This document shows positions 1,872-25,702 of a stretch of 27,673 nucleotides of DNA, one piece after another. Position numbers and translations under genes: made by a program. The DNA comes from a virus. The stretch covers positions 1-27,673 of the IMG/VR virus record IMGVR_UViG_3300021364_000134. The stretch is one strand, 5' to 3'. The notes beneath the pieces were generated by a model that saw only the letters and a list, made by a program, of their open reading frames with translations, ran no database searches and was not told where the DNA came from. The first letter of the stretch is position 1, and every line of letters starts with the position of its first letter.

Positions 1872-1881
1872 TTATATATTA
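1872..1881 (-). promoter_or_regulatory. late-promoter-like box for the GIY-YIG/gp26 unit
   Basis: The minus strand reads TAATATATAA, 36 nt upstream of the GIY-YIG start and about 11 nt beyond the terminator of the tail tube gene. It is one of nine near-identical boxes in the window. Confidence 0.5.
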
Positions 1882-1892
1882 GGGTAGTGACA

Positions 1893-1919
1893 AAAAAACT
1901 GGCCCTAAGGCCAGTTTTT
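1893..1919 (-). terminator. Rho-independent terminator after the tail tube gene
   Basis: On the minus strand an A-run and AAACTGGCC, loop TTAG, then GGCCAGTTT followed by a T-run. The stem is a perfect palindrome with U-tracts on both sides, so it could work in both directions. It lies about 17 nt after the gp19 stop codon. Confidence 0.85.
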
Positions 1920-1936
1920 CTAAAAATATTTATGGA

Positions 1937-2497
1937 TTAAGCTCCAGCTCCAACATTTTCTTCAACCCAGTGATCACAACGGTAAGTCATTGATAATTCA
2001 GCAGGATCAGGAGTTTCATAACTTAATTCATCTACAAAATCAGGTTGTCCTGTTGGGAATACATCTTTACAAGTAATCTTTCTGAAAATATCACCTGCTC
2101 TGTTGTATTGTACAATAATCATACTTCCAACATAATCCTTCTTTAATCCCATTTCACCAGTTAATGGATCATAGATTAATTTGTACCAATTACGGAACGT
2201 GTTGTAAATGTAGTTTTCATTTGCTTCATTCAGGTTTAAACTGAAATTAATTGTGAGATCCAAGAATGTTTGTCCTGGCATACTTGCAAATGAACGGTCA
2301 GCAAATTTGTATTTCTGACCTACTGCATCTACAGAAGGGTTAAGGTTATTTAAACCTCCAATAGTTTTAACCTGCTCCAAAATCAATCCTGTATTATCAC
2401 CTAGTGGACTAAATACAGTCACCTCAAAAAGGTTAGGTTGGATAGGTTCATATCTCTGACTGCTAGCCGTTGATTGTGTATAATGTGGTAGTGGCAT
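1937..2497 (-). CDS. 19: tail tube protein gp19
   Basis: A 186-residue protein; T4 gp19 is 163. It forms the stacked hexameric rings of the inner tail tube. The sequence has the expected pattern: an N-terminal 'QPNLFEVTVFSP' strand, a middle region with 'FNLNLNEANENYIYN'-type content leading to 'FRNWYKLIYDPLTGEMGLKKDYVGS', and a C-terminal 'ITCKDVFPTG' strand near 'ELSMTYRCDHW'. Such T4 tube-family motifs (NW-x-x-L-YDP-x-TG and the K-x-V-FPT turn) are distinctive. It starts at ATG, lies directly downstream of the sheath gene as in T4, has its own late-type box and is closed by a strong terminator. Confidence 0.9.
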   Translation of the reverse strand: MPLPHYTQSTASSQRYEPIQPNLFEVTVFSPLGDNTGLILEQVKTIGGLNNLNPSVDAVGQKYKFADRSFASMPGQTFLDLTINFSLNLNEANENYIYNTFRNWYKLIYDPLTGEMGLKKDYVGSMIIVQYNRAGDIFRKITCKDVFPTGQPDFVDELSYETPDPAELSMTYRCDHWVEENVGAGA

Positions 2498-2513
2498 AAC
2501 TTATCTTATTTTT

Positions 2514-2523
2514 TTATATATTC
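2514..2523 (-). promoter_or_regulatory. late-promoter-like box before the tail tube gene
   Basis: The minus strand reads GAATATATAA, 17 nt upstream of the gp19 ATG in the short gap after the sheath gene. A run of seven A follows it. Confidence 0.55.
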
Positions 2524-2535
2524 ATCTTTCTTTTC

Positions 2536-5500
2536 TTATTGGAAATTACCTGAGCTTATTGCACCTGTCTTAAGAATTGTAGTTCTTTGGACGAGTATTT
2601 CCATTCCTCTAACTGGCTCAATATAAGTATCTAAGATACCAACATTTTGATCAATAACTTCTGGCGGGTTATTTGTTTCATCCATAATGTTTCTGTAGTC
2701 ATAAACTCCATCATCATTTTGAACAGTTGCCAGGAAGTTATCAGCAAGAGTTTTAATTTCCAACCTAGTTTGAGCTGTGTTAAATTCAAACAGATAGTTT
2801 TTAAGAATTGCTTCTATACCATCTTGGATGTAAATTACAACCTCTCTAACATTAATTGAGCTTAATGCAGATTTTGTAGTTTGCTGAGCAGTTTTGTTAG
2901 CAAAGATTGTTGGACCAGTTCCACTTTGGAATACAATTGGATTCAATCCAAATGGTTCTAAGTATTCTCTGTCCTCTTTTCCAAGATTTAATTCTAAGCC
3001 TACAACTCCAGTTCCACCTACAACACCTCTACGAACACCTGCCACTAATGACCATGGTAAAGCATTTTCATACTTTGCAATAAAGTTATTAGAAACATAA
3101 CATGCTGGTGGTACATTTATATTCTTTCCTAAATCTCTCACCGTAATGAAAGGGTAGTAGAATGCGCCGAAGCTTGCACCTTGTGTTTGAGATGGTAACG
3201 AGTATCTAACTGTTGGATTCTTACTAAGATCTCCACCAGTAGAAATAAATCTAGAGGAAAGAGTTCCAGTTGCATCCAAGAATGTAGGATCTGTATTATT
3301 TTTAAAGTCCTTAGCCGAAGGTGCATTAATTATTGCAAATGCATTCTTTCTAGTTTGACAAAGGTTTGTATAAATTGCTTTAGATCCACTTTCAATACCG
3401 TTTCCGAAAGTATCTACGACATATCTAAAGTTAATAGTTTCTCTATCAGTTAATGCTTTAAACAGATTAGTTCCGTTAAGAGTACCGTTTAATATAGCAT
3501 TTTGTCTTTCGTTAGTTCCATTAGGTACATGTTTAGTGTTATCTAATTTAAATCCATCTAATGTAAAGATATTTAAGTAATCAACCCATGCATCTATCGG
3601 ATAGTATAACTCCACCTTTTTAACAGAACCTGCAGTAGAAATTGAAATTTCACTTTGAGTAGTTACTAATAAGGCAGTTTTACCTGCAGGGATTGTACTG
3701 TAGCTAGAATTAGTTAATCCTCCTTGTACAACATTTATTCTTGTTAACCTTGAATGAGGAACTGAAGCAGATCCTTCAAAGTGTACTAAGTAATTACCTA
3801 CAATTACATCAGCAGCATCAGGGTTAGCAGCATCAATTAATACTTGGTTAGGCTTTAATGCCGGTTCTGTAATAGAATCTGCAAGTATATCAATTGAAAC
3901 GTTATTTGCACCTTTCAGTGTTTGGATACCTAAAATATTAGCACCGTATGCAACAGCATCAGAGTTTAAGAAAACACCTGCACCATCCAAAGTGAATTGA
4001 GCATGTGGTGTTAAGTTAGTAAATGCATCTTCCTCATATGCAATAACCTGGACTACTGGTATATTATAAGCAGGGTCAGAGATTGCAATTTTATTAAGGG
4101 CAGCAGTAGGAACTCCTGTATGAATCCACCCATAATCTAAAGCATTAAATACCAAGAACGAAGTATATTGAGTTCCACTATCTAAGTATACTACCTCATC
4201 ACCATCAGTAAGAGTACCGTTAGAGAATTGGCTGTATAATGTAGATCCATAAGAACCTATAATACCTGCAGTTGGATTAGCTAAAGGATTTTCATCAACT
4301 ACGAATCCAAAATCACTTTCATTAATATATGTATATGTTGCAGCAGTAGAATCAAAATCAGATACTGTAATACCACCTACATTAGAAAGTAATAATGTAA
4401 CAGTATTACCAACGACTTGGTGGGATGTTACAGGAACATATGTACCGGCCACCCCTGCTAATAAATAAGTACCTACTACAGAAGAAGTATTTGCAGTCAT
4501 TCCAACGAATGCGTCATATAATGCATCTCCAGTAGATCCTTGTACTTGTATTTGAATCTCTCCACTTGAAACATTAGTAACAGAAATCAATTCTGATGTT
4601 TGTGTTACTGTGTTAGGTGTGGTTGCAGCTCTTGAGTAACTTAAATCAGAAACAATAGCCCCACTATAAGATAAGAAGTTAACATCATCCTGAAGTGAAG
4701 TTGCTTGAGTGTATTCTAAGTTATGACCGATTAAATCAAGTCCACCGGCAACACCGTCAATTAAAAAGTCTCCGCTAAATAAATCTTCATTAACAGTTAC
4801 AAATAAACCAGTAGAAGCAGTATCAGCATTAACAACTTTTTCTACGAAAAGGTTATTACCGATAAGATCTACGAAATCAGGAATTAAAGATGCAGTATAA
4901 GTTGCAATTACATTAACTTCTGATTCATTAAAGAATTCAGCAATTTTTGTATCAGTTGCATCAGAATCAAATATTCTTCTTTGTAATCCTTGTGTTTTGT
5001 CAAAGTATGTTTGGAATATTGGATCCGCTACAAATCTTTCATAAGGTGTAGCAGAACTAAAGTCTCCACCAAAGTTTCCATCAATTACAAAAATATCAAT
5101 CATAAAGTCAGATACTAAACTGTCTTTATCCAAGAAACCTGGAACATTAGCAGATCCGTACCATTCTTCAACAGTTACATTAAAACCTGCAGTATTAGCA
5201 GCTGATGCTTTTCTTGCAATTACAGAGATAGGATTTTGTCCTAAGTTTACCATATCTAATAAATCATTAGTTGTAGTAGAACTTAATACGTTTCTGTTTG
5301 CGCCTACATTATCTAGAAATGCGTCAGAATCTGGATAGAAGAATTTATCTCTGTTGTAAAATTTTTGATATTCTCCTAATGCGCCTGCATTGTTTTGTGC
5401 TTCTGGTGTTGCAGCAGTACCAAACTTAATGTATTCTACTTGGTCATCAGAATCTAAGTTAAGAAGATTAAGAGCTAAAATAGGTCCTCTTTCCAATGCT

Positions 5501-5742
5501 GCTAAACAGCTTCTGTGGAAAAATGAATCCTTTCTCTCCATGTTTCTGTCAATGTCGCCATATACTTGCTTAAAGAATGCCGTATCTGGTACAAATACAG
5601 GAGTATTGAAAGGTCCTGTTTTAGAGAAACCTACAATTAATCTTGTCTGATTCGCAGGAATACTAACTACTTGAGATTTGTCAAATTCAAATCTGTATGT
5701 TCCTGCAGCTTTAATCGAAGCGATTTTCGGATCTAGTGCCAT
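2536..5742 (-). CDS. 18: tail sheath protein gp18, greatly enlarged
   Basis: A 1068-residue contractile tail sheath subunit; T4 gp18 is 659. The N-terminus (about 20-100) has the sheath start 'IPANQTRLIVGFSKTGPFNTP' and 'FKQVYGDI'. The C-terminal 300 residues hold the conserved core: 'FRYVVDTFG', 'VPPACYVSNN', 'ALPWSLVAGVRRG' and 'VREVVIYIQDGIEAILKNYLFE', ending with a long strand-rich tail used for subunit linkage. The extra material lies roughly between residues 130 and 690. It is rich in Ser, Thr, Gly, Ala, Val and Asn, like beta-sandwich surface domains. The gene follows gp17 and precedes gp19, the T4 order. It starts at ATG after an A-rich leader without a Shine-Dalgarno sequence. Confidence 0.93.
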   Translation of the reverse strand: MALDPKIASIKAAGTYRFEFDKSQVVSIPANQTRLIVGFSKTGPFNTPVFVPDTAFFKQVYGDIDRNMERKDSFFHRSCLAALERGPILALNLLNLDSDDQVEYIKFGTAATPEAQNNAGALGEYQKFYNRDKFFYPDSDAFLDNVGANRNVLSSTTTNDLLDMVNLGQNPISVIARKASAANTAGFNVTVEEWYGSANVPGFLDKDSLVSDFMIDIFVIDGNFGGDFSSATPYERFVADPIFQTYFDKTQGLQRRIFDSDATDTKIAEFFNESEVNVIATYTASLIPDFVDLIGNNLFVEKVVNADTASTGLFVTVNEDLFSGDFLIDGVAGGLDLIGHNLEYTQATSLQDDVNFLSYSGAIVSDLSYSRAATTPNTVTQTSELISVTNVSSGEIQIQVQGSTGDALYDAFVGMTANTSSVVGTYLLAGVAGTYVPVTSHQVVGNTVTLLLSNVGGITVSDFDSTAATYTYINESDFGFVVDENPLANPTAGIIGSYGSTLYSQFSNGTLTDGDEVVYLDSGTQYTSFLVFNALDYGWIHTGVPTAALNKIAISDPAYNIPVVQVIAYEEDAFTNLTPHAQFTLDGAGVFLNSDAVAYGANILGIQTLKGANNVSIDILADSITEPALKPNQVLIDAANPDAADVIVGNYLVHFEGSASVPHSRLTRINVVQGGLTNSSYSTIPAGKTALLVTTQSEISISTAGSVKKVELYYPIDAWVDYLNIFTLDGFKLDNTKHVPNGTNERQNAILNGTLNGTNLFKALTDRETINFRYVVDTFGNGIESGSKAIYTNLCQTRKNAFAIINAPSAKDFKNNTDPTFLDATGTLSSRFISTGGDLSKNPTVRYSLPSQTQGASFGAFYYPFITVRDLGKNINVPPACYVSNNFIAKYENALPWSLVAGVRRGVVGGTGVVGLELNLGKEDREYLEPFGLNPIVFQSGTGPTIFANKTAQQTTKSALSSINVREVVIYIQDGIEAILKNYLFEFNTAQTRLEIKTLADNFLATVQNDDGVYDYRNIMDETNNPPEVIDQNVGILDTYIEPVRGMEILVQRTTILKTGAISSGNFQ

Positions 5743-5770
5743 CTTATATTATTTTTTTTATTTGCTTTTT

Positions 5771-5780
5771 TTATATATCC
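5771..5780 (-). promoter_or_regulatory. late-promoter-like box before the tail sheath gene
   Basis: The minus strand reads GGATATATAA, 29 nt upstream of the gp18 ATG. It differs from the common form by one base and is followed by A-runs up to the start codon. Confidence 0.5.
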
Positions 5781-8478: not shown

Positions 8479-8482
8479 CAAG

Positions 8483-13079: not shown

Positions 13080-13109
13080 ATTGTGTGTATTTTATTTAAA
13101 TATAACAAG

Positions 13110-13274
13110 TTATAGTTTAGATTGAAAGTTATCATCCATAAATTTATTTTCTAATTCAATAGAATTTAAATCAGGATATTCTGTCTTCAGCCAATTAAAC
13201 CTTCTAACCGCGTCTCCTAATGAATAATTATTAGGATATTCTTTTATAAGTAATTCTAAAAATTCTGGTGTCAT
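13110..13274 (-). CDS. small conserved-looking ORF coupled to gp44
   Basis: A 54-residue frame between gp44 and the exonuclease gene. It starts at an ATG that overlaps the gp44 TGA (ATGA, 13274-13271). The protein begins MTPEFLELLIKEYPNNYSLG, continues 'DAVRRFNWLKTEYPDLNS' and ends NFQSKL. It is a compact helical sequence with repeated 'EYP' turns and normal codon use for the region. The four-base stop-start overlap is a strong sign of translational coupling. I do not know its function. It is too short to be gp62. Confidence 0.7.
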   Translation of the reverse strand: MTPEFLELLIKEYPNNYSLGDAVRRFNWLKTEYPDLNSIELENKFMDDNFQSKL

Positions 13275-14233
13275 GCTTCATTTACTATTGATTGCAGTTC
13301 ATAAATACAGGCAAGCATTGATACTGCAGGATCAATTACTAATTGCCTTTGTGATTGATATTTGGCAACAGTTACAATAATCTGTGGGATGAATTGTGTA
13401 TATGATTGCCTATCTTGTTTTATAAAATCTATAAATTCAGCACCTAAAGAAGAAAGCACATCATCAGTTCGATTTGCATAATTAGATAACATATATTGAT
13501 AATTTTTTACTGGATCTGTTCCATCAATTACCAAATCATAAATATCTTTGTAAACCGAACTAAACTTTTTAATATCTTCAACACCTACAGTTTCTAAACC
13601 TTGTGATTTAAATCCTTGTAAAGTATTTAACATATTTCTTAAATCAGGAAACTTTCTTTTAACTAATTCAACGGCTGCATGTTTATCAATACCAATACCT
13701 TCATCTTTACATATTTGAAGAACTCTCATTATGTATCCTTTCATAATTTCAGTTTCCTCGTCTTTAGTAAAATCAAAATCAATCATTTCAAATCTTGATT
13801 GGATAGGATCTGGTACTTTATTAATGTAATTACATGTTGCAATAAATCTTGCATTAACATTAAATTGATCCATTGTTGCCCTAAGAGCTTTAAAGAACTG
13901 GTCAGATACACCATCAATCTCATCGAGAATAATTACCTTCATTTTTCCTGGCTCATCCATAATAGAACGATTTGCACAAAAGTCAGTAATACGATTTCTT
14001 ACAATATCTACTGATGTATCTGTTGATGCATTAATATACAGATAAGGATGTTTAAAATGTTTCACTAATGCTTTAGCAGCCGATGTTTTACCAGTACCAG
14101 GACTACCATGTAAAAGCAAATGTTGGTAAACACCTTTACTTAATTTATCACCTACTCTCTTTGGAGTAATCAGATCATCTAATGATTGTGGTCTATACTT
14201 CTCAGTTAAAAGTATGTTTTGAATGTTCTTCAT
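13271..14233 (-). CDS. 44: sliding clamp loader ATPase gp44
   Basis: A 320-residue AAA+ ATPase; T4 gp44 is 319. The motifs are complete: 'EKYRPQSLDDL' near the N-terminus, Walker A 'GSPGTGKT' (43-50), Walker B 'IILDEIDG' (101-108), sensor 1 'ATCNY' (132-136) and the arginine finger 'SRF' (146-148). Four copies with a gp62 subunit load the gp45 clamp on DNA. In T4 the clamp is also needed for gp55-dependent late transcription, which makes the gp55-like gene in the same window relevant. It is the first minus-strand gene after the divergent plus-strand gene. Confidence 0.95.
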   Translation of the reverse strand: MKNIQNILLTEKYRPQSLDDLITPKRVGDKLSKGVYQHLLLHGSPGTGKTSAAKALVKHFKHPYLYINASTDTSVDIVRNRITDFCANRSIMDEPGKMKVIILDEIDGVSDQFFKALRATMDQFNVNARFIATCNYINKVPDPIQSRFEMIDFDFTKDEETEIMKGYIMRVLQICKDEGIGIDKHAAVELVKRKFPDLRNMLNTLQGFKSQGLETVGVEDIKKFSSVYKDIYDLVIDGTDPVKNYQYMLSNYANRTDDVLSSLGAEFIDFIKQDRQSYTQFIPQIIVTVAKYQSQRQLVIDPAVSMLACIYELQSIVNEA

Positions 14234-14306
14234 AAATTTAGATAGATTTATTTTTATATGTAAAAATATGATAAGGTTTCAATGAAATAAATAAAAAAAA
14301 TCTACC
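14234..14306. promoter_or_regulatory. divergent intergenic region between gp44 and the plus-strand gene
   Basis: 73 nt of very A+T-rich DNA that must drive gp44 leftward and the sialyltransferase-like gene rightward. The minus strand holds CATATAAAAATAAATC; the plus strand has TATATGTAAAAATATGATAAG. Neither contains the common GAATATATAA box, so early or middle promoters are plausible. No clear -35 element is visible. Confidence 0.35.
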
Positions 14307-15101
14307 ATGAGGAGATCCAGAAAAATCAGAAAGGTTGTAAAAATTGAGCCTGTTACAATTGACTCTCAAAATCAACCTAGTATGATAAGAAAGGGACAAG
14401 TTTCAAAAAGAAGTAATTTGGTAAAAGTTCCAGCATCTCGTACTCAAGTATATAGACAAAATACCAAACCTAAACCTTATGTAACACCTAAACATTTTAA
14501 AAATGTAGAGCCTATTTGGAGTGGTGAAACTGTTTATCTTATCGGTGGCGGCCCTTCTTTAAAGGGGTTTGAATGGAATAAGCTAAGAGGTAAAAAAACA
14601 ATTGCAATTAATAAAGCAATTAAGTTTTGGCCAGAGGCAGATGCAATGTATTGGACAGACGGTAGAATATGGACATGGTTAGAAAAAGAAATACAAGACT
14701 ATAAAGGTTTAAAGTTTACTATTAGACCTAAACCTTATCCATCAGATGTACATATACTTAGAAGAGGTATTAAATTTGGATTAGAAAAGGCAAAGAATAC
14801 AATTGCTCATGGTAATAATAGTGGATATGCAGCTATTAATTTAGCCATTCATTTAGGTGCTAAAAGAATTATCTTATTAGGTTATGATATGGGAAATGAT
14901 GGAAAGAGCAGTCACTTCCATGATGGATATCCAACTAACGCGACAAGTGAAAAGATTTACAAAGATCAGTTTTTACCAGGGTTTGATGTTTTAAGAGATT
15001 GTTTAAAAGGAACTGGTATACAAATATTTAATGCATGCCCAACAAGTAAACTAAAAACTTTTAAAAGAATATCGATTGAGGAAGCATTAGCGTTTAGATG
15101 A
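14307..15101 (+). CDS. Rossmann-like sialyltransferase/DUF115-type protein
   Basis: A 264-residue protein and the only plus-strand gene. After a 60-residue basic, disordered N-terminus come 'VYLIGGGPSLKGFEWNKLRGK' (nucleotide-binding strand-loop, GGGPSL at 80-85), 'TIAINKAI', 'ADAMYWTDGR', then 'GNNSGYAAINLAIHLG' (169-184), 'IILLGYDM' (189-195), 'HFHDG' and a C-terminal 'IQIFNACPTSKL'. This order matches the GT42 sialyltransferase/DUF115 (MptE-like) fold: GxGPSL, TSG-x-x-x-x-x-A-x-x-LG, GxD and a CPNS-like end. It may modify surface sugars or a phage structure; the substrate is unknown. Its 3' end overlaps the convergent zinc-ribbon gene by 15 nt. Confidence 0.65.
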   Translation: MRRSRKIRKVVKIEPVTIDSQNQPSMIRKGQVSKRSNLVKVPASRTQVYRQNTKPKPYVTPKHFKNVEPIWSGETVYLIGGGPSLKGFEWNKLRGKKTIAINKAIKFWPEADAMYWTDGRIWTWLEKEIQDYKGLKFTIRPKPYPSDVHILRRGIKFGLEKAKNTIAHGNNSGYAAINLAIHLGAKRIILLGYDMGNDGKSSHFHDGYPTNATSEKIYKDQFLPGFDVLRDCLKGTGIQIFNACPTSKLKTFKRISIEEALAFR

Positions 15102-15578
15102 TCGGCGGACATACGTCATAAACTCCCTCTGCTCCCCTTTTAGAAGAGATCTACAGTGTTTGTTAAATTTAATGGACGAATCTATTATTCTTTGATCCAC
15201 TCTTTTATTCCTTGAGTTATGTGCCTCTGAGCATTTTTTACAAACAAAGTTTTCCACCTTTTTAGAATCCATTCTTGATTTAATTTCTACTTTACATATT
15301 CCACAATTCCAATCTATTAAATCTGAATCTTTTTCTAATTCTTTAATGTTTGTAAAGGTTTCTCTAAAAGGATTCCAAAGTATACGGTTAGGATTTTTTT
15401 CATGCTCATTCATATCCTCAACTTTAAAGATAACCTCAAATGCCTGAGTATCAGAATCCAACCATTTAAGATAATTATTTTCTATCATAAATCGTTGCTT
15501 CAAAGGAGGCAGATTCTCCAATAGAATACCATGCCTCCTTTTATACCATCCAAAGTTTATCTTACGGACTTTATACAT
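15087..15578 (-). CDS. zinc-ribbon protein of unknown function
   Basis: A 163-residue protein with one clear feature: C92-x2-C95 (NCGIC) and C113-x2-C116 (VCKKC), 17 residues apart, the spacing of a zinc ribbon. The N-terminus is basic with aromatic residues (VRKINFGWYKRRHG), and the end is basic (VRRSSKR), which suggests nucleic acid binding. It overlaps the end of the coiled-coil gene upstream by 8 nt and is therefore coupled to it. I do not recognise the family. An HNH-type nuclease would also carry such Cys pairs, but the HNH histidines are not evident. Confidence 0.6.
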   Translation of the reverse strand: MYKVRKINFGWYKRRHGILLENLPPLKQRFMIENNYLKWLDSDTQAFEVIFKVEDMNEHEKNPNRILWNPFRETFTNIKELEKDSDLIDWNCGICKVEIKSRMDSKKVENFVCKKCSEAHNSRNKRVDQRIIDSSIKFNKHCRSLLKGEQREFMTYVRRSSKR

Positions 15579-16665
15579 TCTTCATTAACCTTCTAAACTT
15601 TTCAGAAACAGATTCTTCAAGCGGTTGAAATGATTCTTTAGGTTTTGATAAATTTGCTAATTGCTTTTTAGCATCAGCTTCCTTTTTCTTAAGTTCAGCA
15701 ATGTCTTCTTTACTATCTTCAATTGCCTTTTGTAATTTTTGAACCTGTTCTTCAGAACCTCTACCAGTTTTTAAATCTCTTTTAGCTTGTTCCAAATCTT
15801 TAACGGCTTTATTCATAGTAGTTCTTTCAGCTTCTATGTTATCGTTAAATGCTTTAATATCAGCTTCCAATTTTGCACCAGGATCATCAGGAGTTTTATC
15901 AAGATCTTGAATCTTTTTCATTACTTCTCCAATGTCATTACCAAGACCTTGTACTAATTCACTATTACCTTCAGCTTTAGCCTTTTTCTGTTGTGCTTGT
16001 TTAAATTTAATTTCAGCTTGCAGTTTAGCCTTTTCATCATCACCATCTTTAACTGCATCATATGCTGCCTTTGCTTTATCTACTTCTTTTTGTGCATCTT
16101 CCACAGCTTTCTTTTTAGCATCACCTTGCGGATCTTCATTTTTACCAACATCATCTACATCCTGGGTAGCTGGTTCATTCTTTTGTTGTGGCTCATCCTT
16201 TGCGGTAGATTCATAATCTTTAAGATCATTTTGAGCATCAGCGGCTCTTTTGTTAAGTTTTTGAATTCTAACTTTTAATTGTTTAGTTTCTTCGGCATCT
16301 GCTGCTTTAAGTGCAGTTTCAGCTGCAGCTACATTTGCTTTAGTTGTTGCTAATGTTACCACCGTCTTAAGACCATCTGTTGTAGCCAAATCTTTCATTC
16401 TTTGACTAACAGAAGCTGCTTTATCTTTAAGTGCCTGGTTCTTTGCAGCATTAGCAGCCTTAAGAGTATCCATTGCTTTTTTATCAATGTTACCTTTAGA
16501 TGCTTGCTTCTTCTTTTCAAAATCAACGTTATTTAAAGCCTGTTGTACTTTAGCCTGTTGATATTTCTTAGCATTATTTTTAATCTTTATAAATTTAACA
16601 GGACTACCTAACGCAGCTCCAATATTTTCGTTTACAAATTCATCGTATGATTTTACTTTTCTCAT
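15571..16665 (-). CDS. Ala/Lys-rich coiled-coil head-associated protein
   Basis: A 364-residue, almost wholly helical protein, very rich in Ala, Lys, Glu, Asp and Gln, with long heptad-like tracts (about 60-160, 185-235 and 260-345). It starts MRKVKSYDEFVNENIGAALG and ends EESVSEKFRRLMKNV. A central polar linker (about 150-180, DEPQQKNEPATQDVDD) separates two coiled-coil halves. It follows the capsid gene directly, after a terminator and a late-type box. The composition is like T4 prohead core or internal proteins. Segments such as 'FVNEN' resemble prohead protease sites (L/I-x-E). A core or internal head role is inference. Confidence 0.55.
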   Translation of the reverse strand: MRKVKSYDEFVNENIGAALGSPVKFIKIKNNAKKYQQAKVQQALNNVDFEKKKQASKGNIDKKAMDTLKAANAAKNQALKDKAASVSQRMKDLATTDGLKTVVTLATTKANVAAAETALKAADAEETKQLKVRIQKLNKRAADAQNDLKDYESTAKDEPQQKNEPATQDVDDVGKNEDPQGDAKKKAVEDAQKEVDKAKAAYDAVKDGDDEKAKLQAEIKFKQAQQKKAKAEGNSELVQGLGNDIGEVMKKIQDLDKTPDDPGAKLEADIKAFNDNIEAERTTMNKAVKDLEQAKRDLKTGRGSEEQVQKLQKAIEDSKEDIAELKKKEADAKKQLANLSKPKESFQPLEESVSEKFRRLMKNV

Positions 16666-16700: not shown

Positions 16701-16735
16701 AAAACAAAAAAGGTCCGCCTTTCGGCGAACCTTTC
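16701..16735 (-). terminator. Rho-independent terminator after the major capsid gene
   Basis: On the minus strand: AGGTTCGCC, a GAAA tetraloop, GGCGGACCT with one G-T pair, then TTTTTGTTTT. The GNRA loop and the U-tract make a strong intrinsic terminator. It isolates the capsid mRNA from the genes downstream. Confidence 0.88.
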
Positions 16736-16762
16736 TTAAAGTATTTATATACCTAAATAGAA

Positions 16763-18514
16763 TTAGATGATATCTACACCAGTTCCGAATGCGAAACCTA
16801 ATGTGTAGTACATAGTCTCTGGGTGGAATCCAGCATCTACTAAAGCGAATCTAGATTTAACCGCGATTTTAGGAGCCATAGTTCCTTCTGCGATTGTCTC
16901 AACAGATTCAGCCATTAAGTAAGGCATGAATACTAAACCAGGAGAGTTACCATCACCTTTTCTACCTACTGCAACTCTGTAGTCAGTCCAAGCCATGTTT
17001 GGATCAACATAAATAGTTACACCAGCCAAAGCACCGATTGGGTAAAGAGAACCACCAGCTTGGTTGATTGTATTAGAAAGTGGGTAAGGTACGAAACCTG
17101 CGATATCCTGAAGTGCCGTAGCAATTTCTCCAGAACATACTGCGAAAGTAGCAGGACCTCTTCTTCCTCTTGTTGCGATCAAGTTAGATGCAGCAAGAAT
17201 TTTAGTATACAGTCTTCTTTGTAATGAACCTTGAGTTTCACCACCTGATCCAACTAAAGTATCAGCTGTAGTCAACGTGATATCAGTATTAGCACCATTA
17301 CCTGGTCCTAAGTTGATAGTAGTCGTAGCAGCACCAGCAGTTACATATGAAGCAGATAAGTTTAATCCGTCAACAGCATTTACATTATTTGCATTTTGAG
17401 CTCCATTTCTGAAGATTCTATCCAAGATGTATTTGTTAATAGACTGAGTTAACTCATTCACCAATACAGCTTCTACTTGAGCAACTGCATCGATACCGAA
17501 TTGCTTAAGGTCTTGAACTTGTTCTCTAGTCACAGCAGCCGCAACTTGGTAAGTTTTAGCAGCAACAGACTTGTTGAATAAGCTTAATCCCATGATGTTA
17601 TCTGGAGTAGCCTCACCAACACCTCTTTGGTATGGATCAGTACTGTCGATAGACTCAGTAAATGTAGGAGCACCTGCTAATGGGTTGTTAGCTTCAAACG
17701 CATTACCAGAGAAACCAGGAATGTGGTCTTCTAAAGCTTTAACGTATTCAGCAGCACCACTCCAAGAACCAGCAACATCACCAGTTCTAGCGATAAGAGC
17801 ATCATAGAAGTCTACACCGTTAGCAACAGCTTCGTAGATAGCCTCGTAACCTTCTTCGCCTTGAGCAAAGTTAGAAGTTACTGCGCCGTTATCTAAAGTA
17901 CCGTTACCTCTTACACGGAAGATTGAGTAACCGTCAATTCTAGATTTTCCAACGAAAGTTAATTCGTAAGATGCAGCTTGGTTACCTGTTCTTGCAGCAG
18001 AAGATGCATAGATAATATCATCTACAGCTAAAGCAGCAACACCAGATGCCATTGACAATGGAGCTTTAATTAATAAAGGAGCAGAATCGGTAACTTTACC
18101 ACCAGCATCTGTTACTCTACCTCCACCGTATACAAAGTCTAAGTAAGTAAGAACTCCCATAGGACCTTGCATTGGTACAACAGGTACTAAGTCTAAACCT
18201 ACAGTCTGAGCAGCAACCTGCATAGCAAGTGGCAACAGAGAGAATGGTCTATCTCCAGAACCTGGAGTCATACCGTTGTTGAAGTTGTTCATTGTAGTAG
18301 GATCGCTTGGGAAAGCCACTGCGTTCATACCTTGAACATTCATGTTAGGATTTAAGTGTACAGTATTATATACACTCTCATTAAGGTTGTGGTAGTGGCA
18401 GTACTTAGACATCCAAGATAACTTAGACTTTTCAGTGATACCAGTAGCCTCCTCAATGATAGGGCCCCAGGTCTTTTGAACCTCAGCCTCGTTGATTAAT
18501 TGATTTGCGTACAT
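16763..18514 (-). CDS. 23: major capsid protein gp23
   Basis: A 583-residue HK97-fold capsid protein; T4 gp23 is 521. The conserved start 'INEAEVQKTWGPIIEEATGI' and the block 'RPFSLLPLAMQVAAQTVGLDLVPVVPM' followed by 'GPMGVLTYLDFVYGG' are characteristic of gp23. So is the C-terminal 'YRVAVGRKGDG' with 'KSRFALVDAGFHPETMYY'. In T4 the N-terminal about 65 residues are removed by gp21 at an L/I-x-E site; here 'LNE' at 44-46 is a candidate. The leader is A-rich (GCAAAAAATAAAATACTAAA) without a Shine-Dalgarno sequence, and the usual box is absent. The gene follows the protease-scaffold gene as in T4. Confidence 0.95.
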   Translation of the reverse strand: MYANQLINEAEVQKTWGPIIEEATGITEKSKLSWMSKYCHYHNLNESVYNTVHLNPNMNVQGMNAVAFPSDPTTMNNFNNGMTPGSGDRPFSLLPLAMQVAAQTVGLDLVPVVPMQGPMGVLTYLDFVYGGGRVTDAGGKVTDSAPLLIKAPLSMASGVAALAVDDIIYASSAARTGNQAASYELTFVGKSRIDGYSIFRVRGNGTLDNGAVTSNFAQGEEGYEAIYEAVANGVDFYDALIARTGDVAGSWSGAAEYVKALEDHIPGFSGNAFEANNPLAGAPTFTESIDSTDPYQRGVGEATPDNIMGLSLFNKSVAAKTYQVAAAVTREQVQDLKQFGIDAVAQVEAVLVNELTQSINKYILDRIFRNGAQNANNVNAVDGLNLSASYVTAGAATTTINLGPGNGANTDITLTTADTLVGSGGETQGSLQRRLYTKILAASNLIATRGRRGPATFAVCSGEIATALQDIAGFVPYPLSNTINQAGGSLYPIGALAGVTIYVDPNMAWTDYRVAVGRKGDGNSPGLVFMPYLMAESVETIAEGTMAPKIAVKSRFALVDAGFHPETMYYTLGFAFGTGVDII

Positions 18515-18593
18515 TTTAGTATTTTATTTTTTGCACTTTTTGTATAATCTATCTTTAGTTCTTTGCTTCTTAACTATAAGATTGAATTTCTTT

Positions 18594-20430: not shown

Positions 20431-22080
20431 TTATCCAAGACCTGCCAATGGATCCTCATCAGCGGCACCTTCTTTCTTCTCTGGTTTAAAATCGGCCTTA
20501 TCGGCTCCTAAAAGGATCTTTTCAATATCCTCTTCCGTATAACCTTCTTCCTCTAATTCGGTTCTTTCTTTGGCTCTCTGGTTGGCCTTAAGATCTTCTC
20601 TAGTAAATCCTCCGTATCTCTTAACAAGGAATCCTAAATCGAAGTATGGAATTTCCTCCATTTCCGCAGTCATTGTACTTAATTGAGTTTTAAGGTTACC
20701 TATGAAGTCAACTCGTTTTGTTTGTAATTCCATTTCTTTCATTTCTTCGAATACATTATCCTTAACAAAGTTAAGTCCTAAACCGGCTTTAAAGGCAACA
20801 TCATTTTTTAATTCTGGGTGATTAAGACACATTTGAATATACATAGGCTTTACTAAGATTTCCTGGAATATAGATCTTAATCTATTAATAAATTTAGAAA
20901 ACTTAATTTCATCCCTCATCATACCACTTGCATCCATTTCATAGGTATTACCACCTTCTTTATCAAATCTTGAGAATGGAATTTTAGAAGCCATTTTTAA
21001 TCTATCAGCAAAATACTTAAGAGATTCAGTATCGCCTAAGTCAGGACCATCTCCACCAATTGTACTAATTTCTGGTGATTCACCATCTTTAGAAGGTAAC
21101 CAATATTCTTTATTGAATGGCATCATTGGTTTACCGTTTGTAACAATTTCACCGCTCTCGTAATTAAAATCAACGATCTCCCTGTATGAATTCATTAATT
21201 GAGCCAATGATTGTTTTGCTCTTGTTTTAGATTTACCACCTACTGGGATAATAAACTGGGTTTTAAATGAAGCATTAGAAACGGCCCAAATAATTCTGGT
21301 TGTTTCCATGATTCTTAAAAGGTTAAAAGATCTTATTAGTCTTTCAACGTATGATATTCTCATTGGTGAATTTACCTGAGAATATGAAATGTAAATTATT
21401 TGAGAATCATAAAGCTTCCTTTCTTTTGCACCTTGTCCTTTATATTGTACCCATTGTTTTTTACCGGTATCAGTATCAATGCCTGGCATCAAGGAAATAG
21501 GATCCAATTCTTTAAATCCTATAATCTCGGTTTGTTTATCATTGTAAACTATTTCAAAGGCAAGGAATCCATCTACTAACCATTTTCTAAAATAATTCCA
21601 TGGCTGTACTGCATCATTAAATCCAAAGTAATTGTAAATATTATTGTATACATCACCTATCTCATCTTCAATAGAACTTGCAATATGACCATTAAAATCA
21701 GCATATGCCATATAGTTACTTTCATCAAATACAATTGACTCATCTGTGATTACATCTAAGATATCTTCTATTTCATCTTGTACTGCATACTGCCTAAGTT
21801 GATCTCTCTTTCTTTCATAATCCCTATCAAAGATAGAAATATTTTTCTTAAGTGTTGTATCTGTTAAAGAAAGTGCAGCAAATGCGCCATACATATCATC
21901 GGCATCTGAGCCCATAGGATTAAATGTATAACCCATTTGATTTTCAGTAAAACCAACTGCACGAGAATTACGAATGATCATATCATCATATGCCATTCCT
22001 AAATTAGAAAGATCCTTTAAAATTTTTCTAACTGGATTACCTGTACTTAGTGGTCCTCTTCTATCAGTAAAACCTGCCAT
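20431..22080 (-). CDS. 20: portal protein gp20
   Basis: A 549-residue portal vertex protein; T4 gp20 is 524. Typical blocks: 'RDQLRQYAVQDEIEDILDVITDESIVFD' (family signature in the N-terminal clip/stem region), 'KWLVDGFLAFEIVYND', 'IIGFKELDPISLMPG', 'YISYSQVNSPMRISYVERLIRSFNLLRIMET' and 'IPVGGKSKTRAKQSL', then 'DEIKFSKFINRLRSIF'. Twelve copies form the ring for DNA passage, prohead initiation and neck attachment. The C-terminus is acidic and Lys-rich and ends DPLAGLG. It precedes the protease gene as in T4, but the gap genes 67 and 68 of T4 are not present under recognisable form. Confidence 0.95.
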   Translation of the reverse strand: MAGFTDRRGPLSTGNPVRKILKDLSNLGMAYDDMIIRNSRAVGFTENQMGYTFNPMGSDADDMYGAFAALSLTDTTLKKNISIFDRDYERKRDQLRQYAVQDEIEDILDVITDESIVFDESNYMAYADFNGHIASSIEDEIGDVYNNIYNYFGFNDAVQPWNYFRKWLVDGFLAFEIVYNDKQTEIIGFKELDPISLMPGIDTDTGKKQWVQYKGQGAKERKLYDSQIIYISYSQVNSPMRISYVERLIRSFNLLRIMETTRIIWAVSNASFKTQFIIPVGGKSKTRAKQSLAQLMNSYREIVDFNYESGEIVTNGKPMMPFNKEYWLPSKDGESPEISTIGGDGPDLGDTESLKYFADRLKMASKIPFSRFDKEGGNTYEMDASGMMRDEIKFSKFINRLRSIFQEILVKPMYIQMCLNHPELKNDVAFKAGLGLNFVKDNVFEEMKEMELQTKRVDFIGNLKTQLSTMTAEMEEIPYFDLGFLVKRYGGFTREDLKANQRAKERTELEEEGYTEEDIEKILLGADKADFKPEKKEGAADEDPLAGLG

Positions 22081-22100
22081 ATTGTTTTATCTTTTATTGT

Positions 22101-22110
22101 TTATATATTC
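22101..22110 (-). promoter_or_regulatory. late-promoter-like box before the portal gene
   Basis: The minus strand reads GAATATATAA, 21 nt upstream of the portal ATG. Its last three bases, TAA, are the stop codon of the preceding 191-residue gene. Confidence 0.55.
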
Positions 22111-22676
22111 TTGTAATATAATGCTTGTGCCTCATTTATGTTTCCTCCAAAGAAATGGTTTTGATTATTGACGGCACCTATATACCAATCATCATAACCT
22201 AACATTCTCGGTTTCTTAATTCTATCTATTCTATATTGCCTAACTGCATAAGTAAGATTATATTTTCTTCCTAATGATACTTTTAAATTATCATAAGTAA
22301 ATTCCTTTAATCTAGTTTGCATATCAGGATTACCTGGTGAGTTATTAATCTGAGTTGATATAACACTCTTAAAGGATCTTACTACATCAGAAAGAAAAGG
22401 TATTCTTGCTTCATATGGGATGTAATGCAGATTAACGGCTAACTGATGATTATCTATACTTTTACCTAAACCTAATACTATAGGATATGTATCATAGAAA
22501 GTTTCGTCTGGAGTAAAATACTCAAAGGAATACATTTTACCATTTTCCAATTCACCCTTTGCGGTACTTCCTATATTTTTTAAATCTATATCAGACTGTT
22601 TAGATGCACCACTTCTACCCTTATAATCTGCAAGGTAAATATCTAAGTCTTCTTGAAATGATCCTACTATTGCCAT
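22101..22676 (-). CDS. uncharacterised T4-like protein next to gp4
   Basis: A 191-residue protein. It holds 'GKMYSFEYFTPDETFYDTYPIVLGLG' (about 46-71), then 'LAVNLHYIPYEARIPFLSDV', a pattern (short beta strands, 'YPxVLxxG', 'NLHYIP') that I have seen in small proteins of T4-like phages, but I cannot name it securely. The C-terminal half is basic ('RKYNLTYAVRQYRIDRIKKPRM') with a 'GYDDWYIGAV' end. It is coupled to gp4 by a TAATG overlap. T4 gene 53 follows gene 4, but this sequence does not look like gp53. A head-completion or DNA end-binding role would fit the context. Confidence 0.6.
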   Translation of the reverse strand: MAIVGSFQEDLDIYLADYKGRSGASKQSDIDLKNIGSTAKGELENGKMYSFEYFTPDETFYDTYPIVLGLGKSIDNHQLAVNLHYIPYEARIPFLSDVVRSFKSVISTQINNSPGNPDMQTRLKEFTYDNLKVSLGRKYNLTYAVRQYRIDRIKKPRMLGYDDWYIGAVNNQNHFFGGNINEAQALYYKNI

Positions 22677-23152
22677 TAGAATAATTTAGAGTCTTCAGTT
22701 AAAAGCATTACTTTAAAATTTCGCTGTTTAGCAGCTTTATTTAATGCTTCGGTTTTACAAAGGTTTCTAACATATGTTTCATATCCATATTGAAAGTTTT
22801 TCATAGCCTTTGCGGTTTTTCTTTTAGGTGCTTTTGGCTTTTGGAGTTGTGCCTTTGGTTTTATTTCAACTACATACTCTTCAAATATACCATCCTTATC
22901 CATCTTAACATAAAAATCTGGATAATAATTATGAAACTTTTTGTCTAACACATTAAAGTACTTTATAGAAAACGGTTCAGATATCCATTTTACTACTTCT
23001 TCATTATGATCGCACCAATGACAAAATTTTCTTTCCCAGCTGCTTCTGTATATAATAGGACCTGGTCCCATATACTTTTCAGGATTATGAGGTTTATAGT
23101 ACCCTTGTTTAAATCCTGACTTTGCAGTTGGTTTTATTTTCTTTATACTCAT
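22676..23152 (-). CDS. 4: head completion nuclease gp4 (gp50/gp4 family)
   Basis: A 158-residue protein; T4 gp4 is 150. The family core is clear: 'YRSSWERKFCHWCDHNEEVVKWISEP' (about 35-60), followed by 'IKYFNVLDKKFHNYYPDF' and 'EEYVVEIKPKAQLQKPK'. The E...PDF...E-I-K set is a PD-(D/E)xK-like nuclease core. In T4 gp4 completes filled heads before tail joining. It is coupled upstream to the late sigma gene and downstream to the 191-residue gene by TAATG overlaps. Confidence 0.88.
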   Translation of the reverse strand: MSIKKIKPTAKSGFKQGYYKPHNPEKYMGPGPIIYRSSWERKFCHWCDHNEEVVKWISEPFSIKYFNVLDKKFHNYYPDFYVKMDKDGIFEEYVVEIKPKAQLQKPKAPKRKTAKAMKNFQYGYETYVRNLCKTEALNKAAKQRNFKVMLLTEDSKLF

Positions 23153-23517
23153 TAAATTGTATAGATACCGTCACTGTCTGCGCTTCCGTTAATTGATACA
23201 GTTCCAGCATATTTCTTTGGATGTAATTTATTCCATCCTTTTGCAAATCCTCTTTTACAAATTTCAGTAAAATATGCAAATGCGTTAGTACTTTTCTCTG
23301 GATTAAAATTTCTCCAATATCTATAAAGATCCATATAAGCATAAGCTATACAGTCATCTCTATCATCTGGATTTGCATATGATAATTTTCTTGAACATTT
23401 ATCTGCTAATAGCATTAGGAATTCTAATGCCTTTGGTGTTAATTCATCTTGCTCTTGAGATAGGATTATCTGCTCAAGCAAGTCTCTATTGTTTAGGTAA
23501 TTTCTCTTTCTAGCCAT
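23152..23517 (-). CDS. 55: late transcription sigma factor gp55-like
   Basis: A 121-residue protein from ATG 23517-23515; T4 gp55 is 185. The signature is a sigma region 2 helix pair: 'YANPDDRDDCIAYAYMDLYRYWRNFNPEKS' (about 47-76) followed by 'NAFAYFTEICKRGFAKGWNKLHPK'. In T4-like phages this protein binds host RNA polymerase and recognises the short late promoter box with gp33 and the sliding clamp. The frame extends 10 codons further to a TTG at 23547, but that stretch is the TATATAATAATAAATAAAAC leader itself and abuts a terminator, so it is unlikely to be coding. No obvious hydrophobic clamp-binding tail is seen; it ends DSDGIYTI. Confidence 0.82.
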   Translation of the reverse strand: MARKRNYLNNRDLLEQIILSQEQDELTPKALEFLMLLADKCSRKLSYANPDDRDDCIAYAYMDLYRYWRNFNPEKSTNAFAYFTEICKRGFAKGWNKLHPKKYAGTVSINGSADSDGIYTI

Positions 23518-23547
23518 CCCATAAGTTTTATTTATTATTATATACAA

Positions 23548-23584
23548 AAAAAGCCGATAGTTTATTTTCTAACTACCGGCTTTT
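23548..23584 (-). terminator. Rho-independent terminator after the 690-residue gene
   Basis: The minus strand reads AAAGCCGGTAGTT, an A+T-rich loop, then AACTATCGGCTTT with one G-T pair, followed by TTTT. The stem is about 13 bp. It ends directly at the leader of the gp55-like gene. Confidence 0.85.
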
Positions 23585-23599
23585 AGATTGTGGGTATAA

Positions 23600-25672
23600 T
23601 TAAATCTTAACGTTAAGTTGACCTTTAGGGCAAATTGTTTCTTTACCGGATTTGTAATCTATACAAGTTAATTGATCATTATCGCCAAGAGAAGTATAGT
23701 CTTCAGCACTTACATAAACTTCTTGTCCTTTTCTAAGACCGTTTCCGCTTTTATTTACTTCAGCTTCAACGTATCCATCGTCTAGGTATTCTTTACGACT
23801 TTTTTTTTCTGTTACTGATTCGTCTTTTTCATCTTCATCCTCATAATCTTCACCGTCGTGAGTTTTAGATTTATCTCCTTTATTTCCGCCTAATACAACT
23901 CTGTCATATTTTTCGTTTTTTGCAGATTCATCTTTCTCATCTTCTTCTTCATAATCTTCTCCTTTATGAGTTTTAGATTTATCACCTTTATTTCCACCTA
24001 GTACAACTCTGTCATAAGTTTCTTGTAAAGATTTTTCGAATTTAGAAATTTCATCTTCTAATAAATTCATTGCTTCAGTAAGTTCTTCAGTTTCACCAAG
24101 CTTATCAATAGCTTCCTTAACTTTAGCCTTCTTTTCTTCTAAGAAAGAAATCTTATCAGAAATTTCAGATCTTTCCTTTTCTACTTTAGCAGCTTCATCA
24201 TTTTCAGCAATAAGTCTTTCAGAAAGAATTGGGCTAGCATCGTAGTTAATAAATTCTTTTACTAACTTAACGGTTTCAGTTGCAGATTCTACTAATACCA
24301 TTTCATTTAGGTGCATTGCAGAATTAACCTTATTTACATAGATACCTTCCTGTACTCCAATAAGAGTTAAGAATAAGTTTGTAAATTCAGTTGATGTAAT
24401 GTTTGTGAAGTTATCCATTTCAGCAAGAAGATCAATAGATTCAAAGAACTTACATACATTATCAATTTTCCATTGGTTTCTGTAACCAAAGAAGTTGTTA
24501 ACCATTAAAGCTTCTTTTACTTCAATAATACTTGCATTTGATAAATCAACAGTACCAAGCTTAAGTGTACCTTCAGTTAAATTGTATTCTAAAGTTTTAC
24601 CACTTTCACCGAAAGTAACTAATGTACCGTTCATATTTTTAAACATTCCTAAACCTTCTAATACATCGAAGAACCTAGAATCTTTAACCTCCGTTTCAGT
24701 AATGGTTTTTCCATTAAAGATATAGTTCTTACCGTGTAAGTGGAATGTTAATCCTTCCTCTGATTCTAAAACTGGTGAAAGAATAGTAGAAATAGTTCCA
24801 CCACCATTTGCAGTAGCTTTATTATCTTCAGCTTTCATTTCATTTAAAATTGCTTTACAATCCATTGACCATGGATTCTTAGCAGCAAGAGCAGAGAATT
24901 TAGATTTAATAGTATCAGAAGATTCTGAAAGTAAACCTTCTAAATCATTAACAAGACCTTCATATAATTTACCTCTTTGTGTTTTTGTTCTCTCAATAGC
25001 TTCAGAAATTCTGAATGTCCATTTTGCATCAGTAAAAGCACCAGTGATATAAGATCTTAATTCTTTAATTGGGTTCAACCAATCAGAAGAAGCCAAGTTT
25101 CTGTGAAGTTCTTTTGCAATGTTAAACTTAAGAGTAGGATTAACACTGTTTTCAATTTCTTCACTGATTACTTCAGTTTCTTCATTTTTAAATCTCATAG
25201 GGAAAGCCTTAAGAGATTCTTCTAAAATGTGAAGTGCAGTTTTAGCAGAATAAGAAACTCTGGATTCATCAGAATTCATTTCCTTTAAGGCTTCAATGCT
25301 CTTCATAACATTTTCATGCAGTTCGGCAAGTGTAAAGTTCATTTTGTTATGATTTTTTTGTTTATTATTATTTTCTGTAATTGTATTTCCTTTAAAGGCA
25401 TTAATAGCACTCATTCCTAGTTGTTGAGGTATACCCATTCCAACTAAAATTGCAAGTACTTGTGAATCTGTCATAGGTCCACTTTCAACAACCTTACCGT
25501 TTTTACCATCAAGCTTTGTTTTACCACTTTGACTAAATAATACACCAACAATATCAATTAACTGTTGATTAGGTGCATTAAGGTAGGGTGCATCAGTATT
25601 TACACCATATTGACGGTCAATTGATCCGTTCATGTAAACCTGAGTTTGGCCTTCTTTAATAACTTTTTCCAT
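23600..25672 (-). CDS. large unrecognised, probably virion-associated protein
   Basis: A 690-residue protein that I do not recognise. The N-terminal 95 residues form a module with 'QLIDIVGVLFSQSG' and 'DSQVLAILVGMGIPQQLGMSAI'. An Asn/Lys linker (NNNKQKNHNK, 101-110) then precedes a helical region from M111 (MNFTLAELHENVMKSIEALK). The middle mixes helices and beta strands ('LTFHLHGKNYIFNGKTITE'). A coiled coil (about 500-560) is followed by two acidic 31-residue repeats and a C-terminal small beta domain ('GLRKGQEVYVSAEDY', 'QLTCIDYKSGKE'). It has its own late-type box and terminator, so it is probably abundant. A head-internal or capsid-associated role is inference. Confidence 0.55.
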   Translation of the reverse strand: MEKVIKEGQTQVYMNGSIDRQYGVNTDAPYLNAPNQQLIDIVGVLFSQSGKTKLDGKNGKVVESGPMTDSQVLAILVGMGIPQQLGMSAINAFKGNTITENNNKQKNHNKMNFTLAELHENVMKSIEALKEMNSDESRVSYSAKTALHILEESLKAFPMRFKNEETEVISEEIENSVNPTLKFNIAKELHRNLASSDWLNPIKELRSYITGAFTDAKWTFRISEAIERTKTQRGKLYEGLVNDLEGLLSESSDTIKSKFSALAAKNPWSMDCKAILNEMKAEDNKATANGGGTISTILSPVLESEEGLTFHLHGKNYIFNGKTITETEVKDSRFFDVLEGLGMFKNMNGTLVTFGESGKTLEYNLTEGTLKLGTVDLSNASIIEVKEALMVNNFFGYRNQWKIDNVCKFFESIDLLAEMDNFTNITSTEFTNLFLTLIGVQEGIYVNKVNSAMHLNEMVLVESATETVKLVKEFINYDASPILSERLIAENDEAAKVEKERSEISDKISFLEEKKAKVKEAIDKLGETEELTEAMNLLEDEISKFEKSLQETYDRVVLGGNKGDKSKTHKGEDYEEEDEKDESAKNEKYDRVVLGGNKGDKSKTHDGEDYEDEDEKDESVTEKKSRKEYLDDGYVEAEVNKSGNGLRKGQEVYVSAEDYTSLGDNDQLTCIDYKSGKETICPKGQLNVKI
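23816..24016 (-). repeat. two 93-bp direct repeats coding an acidic 31-residue tract
   Basis: Copies lie at 24016-23924 and 23908-23816 with 15 nt between them. Each codes YDRVVLGGNKGDKSKTH, then (K/D)GEDYE(E/D)EDEKDES. The copies differ at scattered, mostly third-codon positions. Confidence 0.9.
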
Positions 25673-25692
25673 ATTATAGAATTTGATTTGTT

Positions 25693-25702
25693 TTATATAT
25701 TC
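25693..25702 (-). promoter_or_regulatory. late-promoter-like box before the 690-residue gene
   Basis: The minus strand reads GAATATATAA, 21 nt upstream of the ATG, just after the stop of the gp15-like gene. Confidence 0.55.

Follow-up and report, generated by a model that had tools for sequence, protein, structure and literature searches.

A candidate T4-type late promoter and its putative gp55 sigma factor in a lineage of large phages

The virus record IMGVR_UViG_3300021364_000134, a stretch of 27,673 bases that we refer to as the window and in which nearly all genes lie on the minus strand, carries a short A+T-rich box upstream of nine genes. Comparison with related sequences indicates that this box is very probably a late promoter of the phage lineage, and most likely the element read by gp55, a T4-type late sigma factor that the window itself encodes. 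The wider explanation, which adds a second promoter class to the late promoter and gp55, we also hold with high confidence.

The box in the window and in its relatives

The word KAATATATAA occurs eight times in the window, each time on the minus (gene) strand and never on the plus strand, against 1.02 copies expected on both strands together (100 dinucleotide shuffles; largest 4). An initial annotation of the window had listed these eight sites and a ninth at 5780-5771, and all nine were found where it placed them; the ninth, GGATATATAA, is not an exact match. The core AATATATA is present at eight of the nine sites and GATATATA at one, and the shorter word RATATATAA appears nine times on the gene strand and not at all on the opposite strand. 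Partial matches are frequent, as the annotation had anticipated for A+T-rich DNA, with 30 one-mismatch copies beyond the eight exact ones in a background of 31-39% G+C. The gap between box and start codon is 11 to 35 bases, close to the 12-36 first given; the gap of 11 runs to the TTG start of an open reading frame (ORF) of 90 amino acids (aa), and that to an in-frame ATG of the same ORF is 17.

The genes behind the boxes had been described as mainly structural. By PHROGs this holds for four of the nine, namely tail tube, tail sheath, head maturation protease and portal; the remainder are one homing endonuclease, which we take to be of the GIY-YIG type, and four genes without a PHROG match. 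Among structural and packaging genes, the major capsid, terminase, head closure and a baseplate-like gene have no box of their own. The further claim that no replication gene is boxed stands for the clamp loader and the RNaseH-like exonuclease; an SbcC-like gene starts beyond the window, where no judgement is possible. Two boxes follow directly after terminator-like hairpins, one at 16705..16738 returned by a terminator scan and one at 1916-1892 read by eye and absent from the scan list; the scan as a whole was not above chance (5 sites found against 7.0 expected from shuffles). A sigma-70 scan (71 found, 83.1 expected) was not used.

The portal protein is 63% identical to that of the uncultured 462-kb phage LR756500 and is next closest to those of huge phages, Sphingomonas phage PAU, the Lak phages of Prevotella and Tenacibaculum phage PTm1. 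Prevotella and Tenacibaculum belong to the Bacteroidota, so that a host from this phylum is likely for the window lineage; Sphingomonas, the recorded host of PAU, lies outside it. A megablast search of window bases 1-25000 against phages returned no matches. IMG/VR yielded 307 portal and 186 sheath relatives, of which we kept the best 80 of each. Among the ten long relative contigs, G001-G003 look like near-duplicates by spacing, and so do G004 and G010.

For the conservation analysis we collected 70 bases of upstream sequence for the orthologs of 24 window genes and collapsed identical sequences into one. The ten distant loci L009-L018 were excluded, as were orthologs with fewer than 70 upstream bases or with an alignment starting beyond residue 4. 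The core [A/T/G]ATATATA was present in 220 of the 231 distinct upstream sequences of the nine box genes, 8 to 47 bases before the start, compared with none of 343 for the fifteen other genes. The eleven misses are two homing endonuclease and nine tail tube sequences, and those nine carry NATAAATA. Entropy is 0.00-0.10 bit in the core columns, 0.23-1.32 upstream and 0.09-0.72 downstream; the core values are in part a product of the procedure, as the core served to anchor the alignment and the two sequences lacking it were excluded.

All 85 core copies in the ten long contigs lie on one strand (reversed word 19), and in eight further contigs KRATATATAA is divided 95 to 2 between the strands (reversed word 26). 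An 8-mer scan of G001 found ATATATAA in 15 of 187 upstream regions, in 2 of 1364 inside genes and never in upstream regions read on the opposite strand; it ranks seventh in that scan, below A-rich leader words. On the gene strand of G001, G004, G005 and G009, RATATATAA occurs 20, 10, 11 and 14 times, with no copy on the opposite strand. The centre falls outside called ORFs in 11, 6, 9 and 9 cases, or 35 of 55, in contigs where called ORFs cover 92-96% of the DNA; a further 5, 3, 1 and 1 (10 in total) fall within the final 40 bases of an ORF, and 14, 8, 10 and 9 stand at most 60 bases before a called start. Counted over coding DNA and both strands in this way, the box continues to behave as the annotation had proposed.

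gp55 and the base at -9

The T4 late consensus is TATAAATA, spanning -13 to -6, and most relatives have A or T at -13 (PMC1524935; PMC2988020). AATATATA agrees with this consensus at six of eight bases, with -13 within the tolerance and A changed to T at -9. The alignment is fixed by the nine orthologous tube promoters, which have A at -9 (NATAAATA) instead of T. Upstream of the late box no column recurs in all five sequences, and there is thus no conserved -35 element; a weak T lies 12-13 bases before the box in four of the five (0.5-1.2 bits, 6-11 sites each), and several positions just downstream prefer A. The single 8-bp box, the lack of a -35 element, the A-rich downstream region, the strand specificity and the conservation among orthologs all support the initial proposal of a diverged T4-type late promoter. 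The host RNA polymerase core, together with phage gp55, would open the DNA at [G/T][A/G]ATATATAA, which places the core AATATATA at -13 to -6 of a predicted transcript start.

The presence of a gp55-like gene, also noted in the initial annotation, is confirmed by profile and by fold. The protein matches phrog_234 (E 7e-15, on the ORF from an upstream TTG), and a hidden Markov model (HMM) of the clade gp55 finds T4 gp55 in a three-sequence test; the Sigma70_r2 score of 19.3 bits lies under the curated cut-off of 24. The AlphaFold model (predicted local distance difference test, pLDDT, 78) has four helices and a disordered tail. Its first match in the PDB is 7d7c_F, T4 gp55 in a promoter open complex (E 0.0047, probability 1.00; template modelling (TM) score 0.71 by query, root-mean-square deviation 10.4), with no PDB match at E 0.001. 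In T4 gp55, Y97 stacks on A-12, N13 and H95 touch A-9 and T99 binds A-8 (PMC7892883). Of the seven pocket residues described there the window protein keeps N13, F86, Y97 and T99, and it has C, K and F in place of L54, R57 and H95. The C-terminus reads GIYTI in all 21 aligned sequences, at the place of the T4 clamp-binding motif, where it would be a putative clamp-binding site; late transcription may be clamp-activated here as well.

The base at -9 differs between phages. We counted each word upstream of genes, and give in turn the number seen, the number expected from coding DNA and the number on the other strand. WATAAATA is found in T4 (26, 0.9, 8) and cyanophage S-H9-2 (10, 0.2, 0), and in Lak-B5 (81, 7.1, 22) together with WATATATA (47, 16.9, 31). 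PAU has WATACATA (48, 0.7, 0) ahead of WATAAATA (11, 0.6, 3), as do PTm1 (25, 1.6, 6 and 16, 3.3, 7) and MA9V-1 (15, 0.5, 2 and 11, 0.5, 3). LR756500 has WATATATA (25, 0.9, 10) ahead of WATAAATA (16, 3.6, 3), and in G001, G004, G005 and G009 WATATATA is seen upstream 9, 8, 7 and 7 times (expected 0.0-0.4 and other strand 0-4, ranges that span WATAAATA in these contigs as well). For PAU itself, WATACATA (sequences L279-L289) makes a strong promoter candidate.

It is possible that the -9 base, A in T4 and the cyanophages, C in PAU and PTm1 and T here, has drifted in step with the gp55 surface in contact with it. The change of H95 to F was rejected as the cause; the gp55 of S-H9-2 has F yet its promoters have A at -9. 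As a working hypothesis, residue 94 may fit the -9 base somewhat better than residue 95. Phages in which A is the leading -9 base (T4, S-H9-2 and Lak-B5) have P at residue 94, and those led by C or T (PAU, PTm1, the window and LR756500) have A or L. Against this idea, P at residue 94 goes in MA9V-1 with C (15) as well as with A (11) at -9, and the phages are few and related. Late boxes varying at a single base, available together with their gp55 proteins, open the recognition of -9 to direct test.

Putative class M promoters and a second phage sigma factor

The replication genes and gp55 carry a bipartite element that the initial annotation had not seen, here termed the class M promoter. Ten intergenic copies of CATATAAA in G001 are preceded by A, A, A and C at -19 to -16 in 10, 10, 9 and 9 of the ten, with a spacing of AAAC-N15 in nine and N16 in one, before UvsX. 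The genes behind them encode a MazG-like enzyme, both DNA polymerase halves, UvsX, the clamp loader, topoisomerase II, thymidylate kinase, a dehydrogenase, the phrog_1644 'minor coat protein' and a thioredoxin-domain protein. AAAC-N15-YATATAA occurs 18 times on the gene strand of G001 and not on the other (0.6 expected); two of the 18 are inside genes and two coincide with late boxes. In G004, G009, G005 and the window the counts are 6, 5, 5 and 2 against none, and in eight contigs outside the discovery set the strands divide 57 to 3 (reversed word 10). gp55 is preceded by a class M element in all five genomes listed. Inspection of the sequences shows the AAAC of its promoter sharing bases with a terminator-like hairpin, and the gp55 promoter may be embedded in the terminator of the preceding gene.

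Class M or M-like sequence also lies upstream, in many of the relatives examined, of the gene for a 249-aa protein (G001 L180:4742-5491; L198-L260) that has no PHROG match and no Pfam match over cut-off. In the relatives this protein is predicted to adopt a PCNA-type sliding-clamp fold (pLDDT 85.6; Foldseek E 1.4e-10, TM 0.64). A search with the clamp family PF02916 gave no match in ten records, and no control genome passed the cut-off either. In G001 the gene lies before that for the C-terminal half of the split DNA polymerase.

A second phage sigma factor is encoded in G001 (L179:6559-7128), a 189-aa sigma70-type protein (phrog_351 E 1e-40) with both Sigma70_r2 and r4. Its gene has ATTATATTTATA upstream in all 14 loci examined, of 16 found. 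This sequence resembles TAnnTTTG with A replacing the last G; Bacteroidota sigmaA promoters are given as TTTG / TAnnTTTG (PMC6847099). TTGTTATATTT / TTGTATTANATTTATA occur eight times on the gene strand of G001 and not on the other, with 0.1 expected. In G001 the strict host-type word TTG-N0..2-TAnnTTTG shows no enrichment, with 8 copies where 7.0 would be expected and 3 on the other strand, so that 'host-like', when used of the second sigma promoter, denotes a resemblance only. An HMM of the second sigma factor matches Lak-B5, PTm1, MA9V-1 and weakly PAU (E 2e-5), with no match in T4 or in the parts searched of S-H9-2 (160 of 187 kb) and LR756500; tblastn gives a match elsewhere in the LR756500 genome. 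Sigma-like matches in 115 phage records, including Synechococcus phages, extend well beyond Bacteroidota phages, and the second sigma factor is thus not itself new. MotA and AsiA (PF09114, PF09010) were found in none of ten relatives, five of them fragments; the T4 positive control was found.

These elements could be joined in a relay, which accounts best for the promoter classes. An early, host-like promoter would supply the second sigma factor, which is the weakest step; this factor, through regions 2 and 4, would read AAAC-N15-YATATAA before the replication genes, the clamp gene and gp55; and gp55, switched on from its class M promoter, would in turn read the late box. We lean towards the second sigma factor as the reader of class M promoters, and see about an even chance, judging from sequence alone, that this is a T4-like lineage, probably of Bacteroidota phages, with a sigma relay (host sigma, phage sigma, gp55) and a co-drifted -9 base; neither estimate is set higher because the strict host-type word is unenriched. 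If the relay is true, MotA and AsiA would be only one way in which T4-like phages bridge early and late genes, and three promoter words would allow early, middle and late genes to be told apart from sequence alone in uncultured large phages of the lineage.

Other explanations, further features and known systems

With both sigma factors present in the relatives, and some boxes at class M distance from AAAC, the second sigma factor might read the late box in place of gp55. Its region 4 should call for a -35 element, however, which class M promoters have and late boxes do not, whereas gp55, modelled as four helices with a disordered tail, keeps the T4 residues that contact -12 and -8; we consider this unlikely and prefer gp55. 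The box might instead be the A+T-rich -10-like element of a host-type promoter, read by a host sigma factor. It lacks the TTTG found in Bacteroidota sigmaA promoters (PMC6847099), and no -35 column recurs, which makes this slightly less likely again, with the host phylum being one that we infer. A translation or mRNA signal is more doubtful still. In these contigs the strongest enrichment upstream of genes is that of A-rich words, and an A-rich leader could serve hosts that, as Bacteroidota, use no Shine-Dalgarno sequence; yet the distance to the start codon varies from box to box, the fifteen other genes have no box and must be translated, and two window boxes stand right behind terminator-like hairpins. 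A phage-encoded RNA polymerase of the kind known from giant phage AR9, where the consensus of the early promoters, AAATATATATTAT-(6N)-G, contains the same letters (PMC5312081), is very improbable: PF00562 (beta subunit) was found in none of 11 records, five of them fragments, and in 14 of 14 control genomes. The T7-type polymerase PF00940 gave no matches, and neither did its controls, so that this search says little. Chance words, however common one-mismatch copies are in this background, have next to no probability, contradicted as they are by the shuffles, the reversed-word control, the strand bias and the orthologous conservation. Host sigma factor, translation signal, phage RNA polymerase and chance were all rejected as explanations of the box.

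Several observations weigh against a late promoter read by gp55. The T4 spelling NATAAATA (WATAAATA) is found upstream 12, 7, 8 and 11 times in G001, G004, G005 and G009 and is as enriched as NATATATA; with both words enriched in the window lineage, T at -9 marks the nine orthologous promoters and not all late-like words, and the T4-type reading first proposed is qualified to this extent. NATAAATA also occurs in 49 of the 343 upstream sequences of genes without a box (g138 21, the 318-aa gene 16, sialyltransferase 10, RNaseH 2). Part of these copies lie in class M promoters or A-rich leaders (for g138, within the class M element), and those at the 318-aa gene and the sialyltransferase gene are perhaps real late boxes in T4 spelling. 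Nine of the 20 gene-strand RATATATAA copies in G001 are inside called ORFs, five of them in the last 40 bases. None of the eight extra box genes in G001 has a PHROG of known function (seven have no match and one belongs to a family of unknown function), and we therefore do not extend the status of late gene to them. The major capsid gene has no box in this clade (0 of 29); the more distant LR756500 does have a box before its major capsid gene. In some relatives AAAC also stands at class M distance from the protease box. Finally, the orthologs share kinship, and their upstream counts are not independent.

Table 1. Positions of putative promoters, selected genes and terminator-like sites in the window
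Feature	Position	Strand	Context and evidence
Late box TAATATATAA	1872..1881	-	Before homing endonuclease gene (1366-1836); core with T at -9 in 28/30 distinct ortholog upstreams
Late box GAATATATAA	2514..2523	-	Before tail tube (1937-2497); 31/40 orthologs T at -9, other 9 A at -9 (NATAAATA)
Late box variant GGATATATAA	5771..5780	-	Before tail sheath (2536-5742); core in 29/29 orthologs, exact AATATATAA in 3
Late box GAATATATAA	8469..8478	-	Before 202-aa gene, then GroES and terminase genes; core in 25/25 orthologs, exact in 14
Late box GAATATATAA	10729..10738	-	Before 90-aa gene; core in 12/12 orthologs
Late box TAATATATAA	16683..16692	-	Before 364-aa gene, adjoins terminator-like site; core in 19/19 orthologs
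Late box TAATATATAA	20404..20413	-	Before head maturation protease; core in 28/28 orthologs
Late box GAATATATAA	22101..22110	-	Before portal; overlaps last codons and stop of preceding gene; core in 26/26 orthologs
Late box GAATATATAA	25693..25702	-	Before 690-aa gene; core in 22/22 orthologs
Possible further late box, T4 spelling GATAAATA	26699..26706	-	Before 318-aa gene; 16/16 orthologs, part of which coding constraint may explain, as the box overlaps a stop codon
Possible late box AATAAATA	14286..14293	+	Before plus-strand sialyltransferase-like gene; 10/10 orthologs
gp55 late sigma factor, 121 aa from ATG	23152..23517	-	phrog_234, HMM, AlphaFold2 model
Class M promoter of gp55, AAAC-N15-TATATAA	23538..23563	-	Pattern search; 5/5 genomes listed
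Terminator-like hairpin and T run, after 690-aa gene	23552..23581	-	Read by eye; similar in relatives; outside terminator-scan stretch
Class M promoter of clamp loader, AAAC-N15-CATATAA	14254..14279	-	Pattern search
Class M-like promoter of 138-aa gene, AAAC-N16-CATATAAA	11827..11854	-	
Class E element TTGTTATATTTA	13097..13108	-	Before RNaseH-like exonuclease
Terminator-like site just upstream of late box	16705..16738	-	Terminator scan (scan not above chance)
Clamp loader (gp44-like), without late box	13271..14233	-	phrog_168 E 1e-70; core in 0/15 ortholog upstreams
Major capsid protein, without own late box	16763..18514	-	phrog_138 E 2e-32; core in 0/29 ortholog upstreams

The sialyltransferase-like gene (14307-15101; phrog_4603), with its own AATAAATA box, is the only plus-strand gene in the gene list. 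Before the major capsid gene, in the region corresponding to window 18515-18593, an inverted repeat GGAAT..ATTCC is present in 22 of 29 distinct relative sequences and absent from the window. We also observed an N-terminus MK.I..F..F in nine of 187 G001 genes (at 45843, 79153, 82574, 94824, 95546, 95995, 96565, 100417 and 120771) and at none of 879 internal methionines; three of the nine carry a late box. It is found in 1/89, 1/77 and 1/60 genes of G004, G005 and G009, and window gene 15571-16665 is similar. The motif resembles the T4 capsid targeting sequence, and given this likeness these may be packaged proteins.

In the open-access literature we found no description of this box, of PAU or Lak promoters or of a T4-like sigma relay; subscription papers lay mostly outside the search. 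'Group 2' jumbo phages (PMC7824862) are similar in lacking an RNA polymerase and in encoding phage sigma factors beside T4-type replication and capsid genes, and the accessible part of that paper contains no promoter words for the extra sigma. The moraphages (PMC12619734) are likewise large aquatic phages, with predicted Bacteroidota hosts and a sigma factor among their shared genes, and no promoters are described in the part of the text that is accessible. The late promoter of the cyanomyoviruses S-PM2 and Syn9 is NATAAATA (PMC2984593). These phages share with the window lineage a variable -13, late genes and gp55, but their -9 is A, and in S-H9-2, over 160 of 187 kb, the second-sigma HMM has no match. 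Another T4-like phage with altered late-box bases is Aeromonas phage Aeh1, whose late promoter is CTAAATA; its change lies at -12/-13 and not at -9 (PMC1524935, PMC2988020).

T4 late transcription, which depends on gp55, gp33 and gp45, is the model for activation by the replication clamp. The window lineage resembles it in the 8-bp box in the -10 place, the lack of a -35 element, the A+T-rich downstream region, the late genes served, the encoded gp55 homolog and, in relatives, the clamp fold. It is unlike T4 in having T for A at -9 in most boxes, mostly A at -13, often G or T at -14 and A at -5, and unlike the T4 middle mode in that MotA and AsiA were not found in the ten relatives, five of them fragments. 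In SPO1-type phages, successive phage sigma factors redirect the host RNA polymerase. A succession of phage sigma factors is proposed here too, but the last would be a T4-type gp55 and the putative middle factor a protein with region 2 and region 4.

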